Shown: positions 16,075 through 32,398 of the stretch, in pieces
Layout: each line of letters begins with the position of its first letter
Numbering within the stretch: position 1 is the first letter of the stretch
Source of the DNA: a virus
DNA: 32,576 nt
IMG/VR virus record: IMGVR_UViG_3300032223_000873
Coordinates: 1-32,576 of that record
Reading direction: 5' to 3' (one strand)
Program-made: the position numbers and the translations under genes
The notes under the pieces: generated by a model
Databases searched by the model: none
Told to the model about the DNA's origin: nothing
Seen by the model: the letters and a program-made list of their open reading frames with translations, nothing else

Positions 16075-16608
16075 TTAGGTAATACGGCCCTGCAGGTGAG
16101 GACGGTTAATCACCACGTTGACCGTGGTGGTAGCCGAGGCCACGGTGGCAGCGTTCGCCGAACGCGCACCGAGGATTTCCTTACCCGAAGCCGAAGCGCC
16201 GATCTTGCCGGTCGAGACAACGCCGATAGCGACGGTCGGGCTGACCTTCGCAGTCGTCGTCTTCGCCACAACCGCCGTACCCTCGATCTGATACCAGCCG
16301 AAGGAACCAGCGCCGTTCGCCGACATGGCAACCGCAACCGGACGCGCCTGGTTAGCCGTGGTGGCCGCAAGCGTCGTCTGGTAGGTCGTGCCGTCATACG
16401 TCACCAGCGAGCCAACCGCCGTATTGGCAACGCCAACCAGCAGAATGAACTCACCAGCGCCGTAGGTCGGGTCAAAAGCACGTTCGACCTGACCCAGAAC
16501 CGCCGGGGGCGTCGGGATGGCCGAGGTGCCGTTAGCCATAGTCACGCCAGCATCGGTATTAGCGATCTGGAGCAGACCAGCCTTGTTGTCGTCAAAAGTG
16601 TAAGCCAT
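16075..16608 (-). CDS. Head decoration/stabilisation protein
   Basis: A 177-residue beta-rich protein directly downstream of the major capsid gene. Key stretches are GQVERAFDPTYGAGEFILL, NTAVGSLVTYDGTTYQTT and a middle FGWYQIEGTAVV, a pattern shared by small phage proteins that co-occur with capsid genes and are usually called decoration proteins. A strong AAGGAGT ribosome site lies seven bases before the ATG, matching high expression, and a terminator follows the stop. Role as capsid cementing protein is inferred from context. Confidence 0.7.
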   Translation of the reverse strand: MAYTFDDNKAGLLQIANTDAGVTMANGTSAIPTPPAVLGQVERAFDPTYGAGEFILLVGVANTAVGSLVTYDGTTYQTTLAATTANQARPVAVAMSANGAGSFGWYQIEGTAVVAKTTTAKVSPTVAIGVVSTGKIGASASGKEILGARSANAATVASATTTVNVVINRPHLQGRIT

Positions 16609-16620
16609 GGTAATAACTCC

Positions 16621-17622
16621 TTAAGCGATCAGGACGCCGCAGAACTGCGGGCCGCTGCTCGTGAGGTTACCGGCCCACCCGATCAGCTTGACGATGGCGT
16701 CCTGATTGACCGCCTGACGCTCGCCACCAATCGGAACAAAGTTGCGATCCTTGTGGGGCCGGAACATCAGGTACTTGGTGTTCAGGAACCACATATGGTT
16801 CGCCGTCGCCGCAGAACCGATACCGCCGTCCAGCACAACGTCAGACGCCATGCCAGCGCCGTAGTATTTCAGGGCCGCAAAGCCAGCACCAGCCATCGAC
16901 GAGCCTTCGCTCGTAACGCGCTGGATCGACTGGAGGCTCTGGAGGTACAGGCGGTAGTAGTTGTTGTCAGCAACGATCAGATCCGGCTTATCGGTGCCGC
17001 GAATCAACTGAACGGCCAGAGCATCCATGTAAGCCTGAATGTTCGAGGCCGAGACAGCCGCGCCACCATCGGTCACGCCGGAATACTTCTGCGAACGCCA
17101 GAACGACCATGTAGTACGGCTAATGCCGCCATAAGTACCAGTCGAGGGAGCATCCGGGACGGCAGCGCCGAGACCCGTGATGTTCTTGCCCGAGTTGCCG
17201 GTGCCGTCGAGGTAGATGTCGCTACCGATACGGTTGGCAAGCTGAGCTTCGGCAACATTCATACGACCGTCAAGCAGGTCGATGATCGCTTCCTTGCCCG
17301 AGTTCTGGATCATCTCAAGACCCGAGATCGACACCGCCGCAGCGTACTGCGTGATGCTGAACTGAGCCGCCGAGATGGGCGAGTTCTGCGACACGTTCAG
17401 CACTTCATAGCCACTGTAGCTATTGGTGTTGTTCGTGGTCGAGTCGTTGTACATGATTTCCTGCAAAATCACGTTACCGCCCGAGAACGTCTTCACGTTC
17501 CCGCGCTCCTTCAGACGACGAAGCAACGCATTGTTGTTCGTCACGTTATCAGCGAGTTCACCGCTGCGGCTCTGAATGTTAGTCGCAATGATGTCGCTGA
17601 TTGAGGAATTGGCAAATGCCAT
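16621..17622 (-). CDS. Major capsid protein
   Basis: A 333-residue protein with the layout of HK97-fold coat proteins of podoviruses. It has NNNALLRRLKERGNVKTFSGG near the N-terminus, then YEVLNVSQNSPISAAQFSI, a long spine-helix region GLEMIQNSGKEAIIDLLDGRMN, and a C-terminal beta segment with KYLMFRPHKDRNFVPIGGER. The gene lies right after the scaffold and before the decoration gene. An AGGAGATAAAC ribosome site precedes the ATG. Codon composition is the most GC-rich of the window, as expected for the most highly expressed gene. Confidence 0.9.
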   Translation of the reverse strand: MAFANSSISDIIATNIQSRSGELADNVTNNNALLRRLKERGNVKTFSGGNVILQEIMYNDSTTNNTNSYSGYEVLNVSQNSPISAAQFSITQYAAAVSISGLEMIQNSGKEAIIDLLDGRMNVAEAQLANRIGSDIYLDGTGNSGKNITGLGAAVPDAPSTGTYGGISRTTWSFWRSQKYSGVTDGGAAVSASNIQAYMDALAVQLIRGTDKPDLIVADNNYYRLYLQSLQSIQRVTSEGSSMAGAGFAALKYYGAGMASDVVLDGGIGSAATANHMWFLNTKYLMFRPHKDRNFVPIGGERQAVNQDAIVKLIGWAGNLTSSGPQFCGVLIA

Positions 17623-31102: not shown

Positions 31103-31419
31103 TGATTAGCGAATCACAACTTGACAAAGCAATGAACTATTTGGCCGAAACTGATGCCGAAAGTGCGGAACTCAAAGCTGATGTTCAGCGCACCGAGTTC
31201 ATGGCGAAAGTAACCGAAGCGTTGTGGTTCAAACAGGCCGAAGGCGGAGTGGAAGAACGCCGCCAGTACGTTAAGACCTTGGAGCCTGTGAAAGCCGCAT
31301 GGGAAAAACACTTTGTAGCCATTACGGCTTTTGAGACTGTGCGCGCCCGGCGTGAAAGGGCCGTGCTTGTGGTCGATGTCTACCGGACGCAAGCAAGTAA
31401 TCGCAGGGCTGGGTTGTGA
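31102..31419 (+). CDS. Hypothetical helical protein (105 aa)
   Basis: A 105-residue, strongly helical, charged protein (QLDKAMNYLAETDAESAELK; ALWFKQAEGGVEERRQYV; RARRERAVLVVDVYRTQ). Proteins of this layout occur between single-strand-binding and methylase genes in phages, without known function. The stop overlaps the methyltransferase GTG as GTGA. Confidence 0.65.
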   Translation: MISESQLDKAMNYLAETDAESAELKADVQRTEFMAKVTEALWFKQAEGGVEERRQYVKTLEPVKAAWEKHFVAITAFETVRARRERAVLVVDVYRTQASNRRAGL

Positions 31420-32132
31420 AAGTTTTGGATTTGTTTAGTGGTATTGGCGGTTTCAGTCTTGGCCTAGAACGCGCTGGCATGAAGACTGTTGCCTTTTGTG
31501 AAATAGAACCTTATTGCCGCCAAATTCTTAAAAAACATTGGCCGGAGGTGCCTTGCTATGACGACATCCAAACACTTACAGCAGAGCGACTGGCTAGAGA
31601 CGGAATTGAAGTCGATGTCATCTGCGGAGGATTTCCCTGCCAAGACATCAGCACTGCTGGCCGGGGAGCTGGCTTGGCCGGAGAGCGTTCCGGCCTCTGG
31701 TTTGAATACGCAAGACTTATTGGCGAGCTTCGACCCCAATACGTCATCGTGGAGAACGTCACAGCATTGCTTAGTCGAGGGCTTGGCACCGTACTCGGAG
31801 ACCTGGCCTCGCTCGGGTATGACGCGGAATGGCACTGCATACCGGCTTCCTGTGTTGGTTTGCCCCACATTAGGGACAGAATCTGGATTGTTGCCGACAA
31901 TCTGCAAAAGCGAAGGAAAGGGGACTTCTGCCAAACGCTTCAAAGGCTCTACGGAATATCGTGGAGCGAAAATGAGCGAAGGGCTACGCAATGGCTTGAC
32001 AGATATGGCTTACACGCACCCAGACTTAGCGTGCGCTGCAATGGGATTTCCGAAGCATTGGGCGCATATGGAAATGCCGTAGTCCCTCAAATTCCAGAAT
32101 TGATCGGCCGAACAATTATGGGAACGATATGA
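31416..32132 (+). CDS. DNA (cytosine-5) methyltransferase, compact
   Basis: A 238-residue cytosine-C5 methyltransferase that methylates C in a specific DNA sequence using S-adenosylmethionine, probably to avoid host restriction. All core motifs are present: I DLFSGIGGFSLGLERAG (5-21), IV GGFPCQDIS with catalytic C75, VI ENV (113-115), VIII HIRDRIW (151-157) and X AYGNAVVPQI (217-226). The target-recognition region between VIII and IX is only about 50 residues, so the enzyme is shorter than the usual 300 or more. The GTG start (GTGA overlap with the upstream stop) has a weak ribosome site. A second frame overlaps residues 48-222. Confidence 0.9.
   Translation: MKVLDLFSGIGGFSLGLERAGMKTVAFCEIEPYCRQILKKHWPEVPCYDDIQTLTAERLARDGIEVDVICGGFPCQDISTAGRGAGLAGERSGLWFEYARLIGELRPQYVIVENVTALLSRGLGTVLGDLASLGYDAEWHCIPASCVGLPHIRDRIWIVADNLQKRRKGDFCQTLQRLYGISWSENERRATQWLDRYGLHAPRLSVRCNGISEALGAYGNAVVPQIPELIGRTIMGTI
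31544..31550 (+). promoter_or_regulatory. Strong internal Shine-Dalgarno inside the methyltransferase gene
   Basis: GGAGGTG matches seven consecutive bases of the consensus complementary to the 16S rRNA tail. It ends seven bases before the ATG at 31558 of an out-of-phase frame. In the methyltransferase frame these bases fall in codons for P-E-V, so the host gene itself does not need such a match here. It is stronger than the ribosome site of the methyltransferase gene. Confidence 0.6.
31558..32082 (+). CDS. Candidate overprinted gene inside the methyltransferase (+1 frame)
   Basis: A 174-codon frame, one base out of phase with the methyltransferase and nested in it. Support: ATG with a seven-base perfect ribosome site at ideal distance; a Trp/Ser/Thr-rich translation with SSWRTSQHCLVEGLA, then YSETWPRSGMTRNGTAYRLP, LLPTICKSEGKGTS and a late MGFPKHW. 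From memory, phage proteins with the same 'SSWxTSQ...FSETWPRSGM.RNGTxYxLP...MGFPxxW' series are annotated widely, as hypothetical or methylase-related. Against it: other frames here are open too, on both strands, so openness alone proves little. Function, if real, is unknown; it could assist the compact methyltransferase. Confidence 0.5.
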   Translation: MTTSKHLQQSDWLETELKSMSSAEDFPAKTSALLAGELAWPESVPASGLNTQDLLASFDPNTSSWRTSQHCLVEGLAPYSETWPRSGMTRNGTAYRLPVLVCPTLGTESGLLPTICKSEGKGTSAKRFKGSTEYRGAKMSEGLRNGLTDMAYTHPDLACAAMGFPKHWAHMEMP

Positions 32133-32398
32133 ACCTTCGCAAAGAAGCCCGTGGGCGCGAATGCCAGATACGCATTCCGGGTTGTTGCAATGGCAATCCT
32201 GAAACGACCTGTTTGGCCCACTACCGGCTTGCAGGCATCTCAGGCATGGGGATCAAGCCGCCTGACCTGATCGGGGCGTGGGCCTGCTCTGCTTGCCACA
32301 ACTACGTTGATACGCACAATGATTTGGAAACAAAATTGGCATTTGCCCACGGCGTATTTAGAACCCAAACGATTTTGCACAAGGAAGAAAAACTGTGA
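32129..32398 (+). CDS. YbcO/DUF1364-like putative nuclease
   Basis: An 89-residue protein of the DUF1364/YbcO type known from lambdoid prophages. It shows CQIRIPGCCNGNPETTCLAH (residues 12-31), then GMGIKPPDLIGAWACSACH (39-57), with many Cys and His (C12, C19, C20, C28, H31, C53, C56, H57, H63) fitting a zinc-bound HNH-like fold. It is thought to act in phage recombination as a Holliday-junction or DNA nuclease. The ATG overlaps the methyltransferase stop (ATGA). Confidence 0.85.
   Translation: MNLRKEARGRECQIRIPGCCNGNPETTCLAHYRLAGISGMGIKPPDLIGAWACSACHNYVDTHNDLETKLAFAHGVFRTQTILHKEEKL

Follow-up and report, generated by a model that had tools for sequence, protein, structure and literature searches.

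The C5 cytosine methyltransferase gene of IMG/VR record IMGVR_UViG_3300032223_000873 (a virus; we call the stretch analysed here, positions 1–32,576 of the record with a length of 32,576 nt, the window) probably encodes a naturally split enzyme, in which a catalytic chain, alpha, is read in frame 0 and the recognition part is read as a second protein, beta, in the overlapping +1 frame. No expression or biochemical data are available for this pair. That the overlapping gene is real and protein-coding we regard, on the grounds of sequence comparison, as almost certain; its translation in vivo is inferred. The features of the locus are the following:

31416–32132, plus strand: alpha, a C5 cytosine methyltransferase of 238 aa with a GTG start (from PF00145, TIGR00675 and the AF2 model).
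31544–31550, plus strand: GGAGGTG, the putative Shine-Dalgarno sequence of beta, 7 nt 5' of the beta ATG (from the sequence).
31558–32082, plus strand: beta, a +1-frame ORF of 174 aa with an ATG start, proposed as the recognition subunit (TRD and motif IX; from PHROG 1008, stop depletion and homologues).
31626–31652, plus strand: alpha motif IV, GGFPCQDIS, with the catalytic Cys; the same DNA reads EDFPAKTSA in beta.
31752–31760, plus strand: alpha motif VI, ENV; the same DNA encodes the WRTSQ region of beta (from the sequence).
31872–31892, plus strand: alpha motif VIII, RDRIWIV (from the sequence and the alpha alignment).
31888–32013, plus strand: the TRD module of beta, LLPTICKSEGKGTSAKRFKGSTEYRGAKMSEGLRNGLTDMAY, residues 111–152 (from higher conservation of beta than of alpha and the AF2 model).
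32014–32061, plus strand: the motif-IX-like segment of beta, THPDLACAAMGFPKHW, residues 153–168 (from hhalign against single-chain actinophage methyltransferases).
32070–32093, plus strand: alpha motif X, GNAVVPQI, in frame 0 at the extreme end of the overlap (from the sequence; +1 stops reappear from here).

Beta lies wholly within the alpha ORF and corresponds to alpha codons 48–222. An earlier note on this DNA, made without database searches, had proposed this 174-codon ORF, and we could confirm it at 31558–32082 (+). The note had also named motifs VI and VIII as parts of the shared DNA; both indeed lie in the overlap, but not those alone, since motif IV (GGFPCQDIS), which is almost invariant across the alpha alignment, is shared as well. 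At its 5' end alpha overlaps the preceding ORF, the GTG overlapping that ORF's stop codon (GTGA, 31416–31419). Downstream, the gene for a YbcO-like putative nuclease (window positions 32129–32398) overlaps the end of alpha by 4 nt, and in two relatives the C-terminus of alpha (L151) or of beta (L015) extends into Cys/His-rich, HNH-like stretches. From these neighbours and extensions, methyltransferase and HNH-type domains seem to be repeatedly paired. Elsewhere in the window a 502-aa ORF (16096–17604, plus strand) lies opposite minus-strand genes; it is without a PHROG match and is probably due to chance.

Alpha carries the C5 methyltransferase motifs I, IV (PCQ), VI (ENV), VIII and X. It matches PF00145 (3.8e-44) over model positions 1–162 of 324 only and TIGR00675 over positions 1–169 of 329 only. 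Its AF2 model (pLDDT 85.2, pTM 0.83) could be superposed on M.HhaI over about 205–211 of 327 residues, with a VIA-align Z of 23–24.

For the analysis of stop codons we used synonymous-codon shuffles of alpha as a null model, in which the protein and the codon usage were retained, and compared each frame with them. The +1 frame of the window is open over 191 codons, a length that was reached in only 5 of 20,000 shuffles (median 79). The length of the beta ORF alone is weak evidence, since the same place also holds an antisense ORF (31464–31991, 175 aa). The comparative sample comprised 67 loci clustered at 80% identity, which together with the window make 68 non-redundant loci. All 67 were retrieved with alpha only and are therefore not biased towards beta. 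Over alpha codons 46–165 these 67 loci contained 32 stops in the +1 frame compared to 228 expected, and 54 of them were entirely free of +1 stops (2.2 expected). The same test on the +2 frame gave 341 stops for 334 expected. Along the gene, with all 68 loci, +1 stops were as frequent as expected in codons 1–43 (100 observed, 101 expected), fell to 18 for 46 expected in codons 44–60, 8 for 32 in codons 61–70 and 5 for 17 in codons 71–90, and were absent from codons 91–150, where 122 were expected. The TRD region contained two (62 expected), and from motif X onward 89 were found for 62 expected. According to this profile beta is coding from about alpha codon 44–88 to just 5' of motif X.

For codons 91–165 we found a single +1 stop in the 68 loci where 141 were expected. 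In the same interval no depletion was detected in the +2 frame (174 observed, 186 expected) or in the three antisense frames (118/124, 214/172 and 148/121 observed/expected). Both marks of the +1 signal were present in 65 of 109 methyltransferases and in none of 337 other genes of the same loci. The Dcm gene of E. coli, taken as a further control, was without a +1 signal (p 0.77).

The frame under protein conservation changes along the overlap. In pairs of loci selected by beta similarity, the TRD module was more conserved in beta than in alpha in 78 of 78 cases. Since such a choice of pairs would favour beta, the comparison was redone with pairs selected by DNA similarity only, which favours neither frame; the same loci recur among these pairs, which are not independent of one another. 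In the catalytic part the identities were 0.78 for alpha, 0.51 for beta and 0.49 for the third frame. In the TRD part (motifs VIII–X) they were 0.47 for alpha, 0.80 for beta and 0.48 for the third frame, with beta above alpha in all 49 pairs, of which 21 compare non-equivalent positions. This hand-over indicates selection on frame 0 for the catalytic protein and on frame +1 for the recognition region. The N-terminal half of beta, which lies over the catalytic domain, is barely above the third frame. Between motifs VIII and X the conservation of frame 0 is at the level of the third frame: a TRD and a motif IX are absent from alpha here, and the alpha reading of this stretch behaves like a neutral linker. 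On these two kinds of comparative evidence, stop depletion and conservation by frame, the overprinted gene put forward in the earlier note is real. The note's further idea that beta is the partner of a methyltransferase with a short target-recognition region fits the recognition region being conserved in the overlapping frame, while the complex itself is only inferred.

Beta matches PHROG 1008, annotated as 'DNA methyltransferase', with an E-value of 7e-18, and so do all 54 aligned beta sequences. This is the protein that the note had described as recurring in phages under hypothetical or methylase-related annotation. The window beta has no match in Pfam or NCBIfam, and an HNH domain was not matched by any of the 54 sequences in Pfam or PHROGs. 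The end of the family follows the consensus NPxFVEWLMGFPxGWT and is preceded by one to four modules opening with LPTP or WPTP; the window beta contains one LPTP-type module, its relatives one to four. The module types recur across loci in differing order and number. The family end is homologous to motif IX of single-chain actinophage methyltransferases (hhalign 96.8%, E 2e-10, 20 columns). With RLTPRECARLMGF, motif IX of Dcm, it shares a positional likeness only (E 0.016–0.04, low probability). At one locus (L100, beta 160–930) an LPTP module whose type, NGNYN, is known from the TRD regions of other loci has its place between motifs III and IV of alpha, at the N-terminus of beta. It is still read in the +1 frame, which fits modules acting in beta. 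L077, L126 and L041 contain similar +1-frame insertions at this place.

The predicted fold of beta gives no independent support, because the AF2 model is poor (pLDDT 63.7, pTM 0.34) except for residues 121–150 (pLDDT about 87). No PDB fold was matched by the model at a Z of 2 or more, and the beta profile likewise found no match among PDB sequences. Against BFVD the best matches of the model include phage proteins named as methyltransferases, with low TM-scores.

Two different queries returned homologues of beta from 61 and 154 phage records, respectively. They occur in phages of Mycobacterium, Gordonia, Streptomyces, Paenibacillus, Bacteroides, Stenotrophomonas, Synechococcus, Microcystis, Vibrio, Acinetobacter and other hosts, and also in bacterial genomes; a plasmid search returned only nine matches. 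Two contigs assigned to Methanophagales archaea (L193 and L195) contain the overlapping pair, L195 with several LPTP modules, which suggests that archaeal viruses may carry it.

Among newly fetched loci, 68 of 69 beta matches overlap a methyltransferase gene, 67 of them in the +1 frame; the match in L192 appears to be in +2 relative to the best alpha match. The sole non-overlapping match (L197) is cut by the end of its contig, and a search of viral and genome contigs with the short-class profile gave no free-standing beta. According to the earlier note a lack of homologues outside methyltransferase genes would refute the overprinted gene, and this lack is what we observed. For a split enzyme, however, no such homologue is expected, and we therefore do not consider the result as refuting.

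Single-chain relatives contain the same parts in one polypeptide. In Tweety gp72, Babsiella gp54 and PFR1, motif VIII is followed in one chain by LPTP modules, the segment RLAxxFxEWMMGxPxGxVT and motif X. A PDB search with the single-chain methyltransferase of L047 gave no match. In L045, L047, L201 (Babsiella) and L203 (Tweety) motif IX is in frame 0, yet SETWP/LPTP-like segments are present in the +1 frame; these actinophage enzymes may be remnants of the split form or intermediates. Vash and Upyo have motifs IX and X in the second frame, where they belong to a gene with its own annotation.

Other explanations of beta have to be weighed against the split enzyme. The +1 ORF could be an artefact without a product, a shadow of the conserved codons and the composition of alpha, as its first half mirrors conserved motifs of alpha and a chance antisense ORF reaches a similar length. 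We regard this as hardly tenable: one stop was found where 141 were expected, four other frames show no depletion, conservation of beta exceeds that of alpha in the TRD, and the control genes are negative. For a shadow ORF arising from codon usage in particular, the synonymous shuffles, the neighbouring genes, Dcm and the other frames rule it out. Alternatively, beta may be a true overprinted protein with another job, e.g. as a regulator or in anti-restriction, which binds the methyltransferase by chance or is merely located in its gene. The LPTP modules and motif IX of beta occupy the place of the TRD-IX region in single-chain methyltransferases, alpha is without this region, and beta was not found free-standing in viral or genome contigs. 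All of this makes another job improbable, even though neither a structure nor an assay exists for beta and its N-terminal half is not known from any methyltransferase.

How beta is reached by the ribosome bears on a further alternative, a programmed frameshift after motif VIII. It would join the catalytic part, the TRD and motif IX in a single chain, made in addition to the frame-0 product; there are no slippery-site data. Single-chain relatives hold all parts in one polypeptide, and indels at one locus (L043) join the two frames, both in keeping with such a shift. The +1 stops, on the other hand, are gone from about codon 44, far upstream of motif VIII, a loss that a late shift would not need, and the product of a late shift would be without motif X. 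A possible internal start is moreover present in most loci. GGAGGTG is located 7 nt before the beta ATG and alpha has no comparable Shine-Dalgarno sequence at its GTG, in agreement with the earlier note, which had described the site of beta as the stronger one. Across relatives an ATG with an open +1 frame was found in 94 of 109 loci, and where the ATG is at the window's column a Shine-Dalgarno sequence of at least 5 nt is present in 43% compared to 22% in synonymous shuffles. As a reservation about internal initiation, the positions of ATG and Shine-Dalgarno vary among relatives and a strong Shine-Dalgarno is not universal. Taken together we consider the frameshift unlikely. In L043 (2856–3671) and L150 (2965–3702) indels exchange the frames, so that the N-terminus of alpha continues into beta or beta into the C-terminus of alpha; this is either a sequencing error or a recent frameshift.

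In the split enzyme that we favour, alpha would be the SAM-binding catalytic domain with motifs I–VIII and X, which flips and methylates the cytosine, and its stretch between motifs VIII and X would serve as a permissive linker only. Its translation is probably coupled to the upstream ORF, because the GTG overlaps the stop codon of the latter. Beta would be initiated internally from its own Shine-Dalgarno sequence and ATG near alpha codon 48 and would contribute DNA recognition through one LPTP-type target-recognition module and motif IX. Both chains are inferred to pair into an active, sequence-specific enzyme, with a probable role in protecting the phage DNA from host restriction. On a more general level, these genes may represent a phage-wide class of split C5 methyltransferases in which the whole specificity determinant is an array of exchangeable modules in an overlapping frame, with modules even between motifs III and IV, the other frame is an inert linker, and module swaps reprogram methylation. 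For this wider proposal we see the chances as evenly balanced.

Phage cytosine methyltransferases of this family have probably been annotated, cloned and tested as one chain, without the recognition half that the other frame encodes; by itself, alpha would seem to lack activity or specificity. If the split holds, many phage methyltransferases with a 'short TRD' and the orphans of PHROG 1008 are one enzyme, and any prediction of specificity must use beta. The gene would then also be a clear example from nature of dual coding maintained over a long time, with protein selection acting on each half in a different frame. For decoding m5C specificities, the arrays of one to four modules are a convenient starting set.

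Proteins of the +1 frame have already been deposited, named 'DNA methyltransferase' or hypothetical, e.g. gp63 of phage Lily ('g62 internal gene') and gp55 of Babsiella, and records of Paenibacillus phages contain two methyltransferase features including the +1 gene. Our searches of the open-access literature gave no account of the overlap as a family, of beta as a TRD chain or subunit, or of the modules. M.SPRI and M.phi3TI are multispecific phage C5 methyltransferases with tandem TRDs in one frame of one chain. The present family likewise combines a single catalytic core with several recognition modules in tandem, but in an overlapping frame, their role in specificity being inferred only. 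In actinophage methylases a sporadic out-of-frame HNH homing insertion, the ShiLan domain, has been described (PMC11855218). This is also a second reading frame inside a phage DNA methylase gene; in contrast to it, beta is without any HNH match, extends over the catalytic motifs and occurs in the whole family.

In M.AquI (CYCGRG), a naturally split C5 methyltransferase, the second chain contains motif IX and the distal variable region (PMC3404938). That chain also holds motif X, as in the Vash and Upyo relatives, whereas in the window motif X belongs to alpha in frame 0. The nearest precedent is M.EcoHK31I, whose target is YGGCCR and with which M.EaeI is grouped. Lee, Kam and Shaw are said to have reported in 1995 that its small gene lies inside the large gene in another frame, and beta would resemble it in being encoded in an alternative frame within the alpha gene. 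M.EcoHK31I consists of two polypeptides, a large chain with motifs I–VIII and X, which is said to contain a predicted TRD, and a small chain with motif IX (PMC3404938). The system that the earlier note had suspected to be undescribed is therefore in part of a known kind. Alpha likewise carries motifs I–VIII and X, and beta carries motif IX, as judged from its hhalign match to the single-chain motif. Unlike in M.EcoHK31I, TRD-like conserved modules are found in beta and their counterpart in alpha is a linker, and the system is a family found broadly in phages, whose modules are exchangeable and arranged in tandem. What is new in comparison is the location of the TRD in beta, the arrays of modules and the broad distribution among phages.
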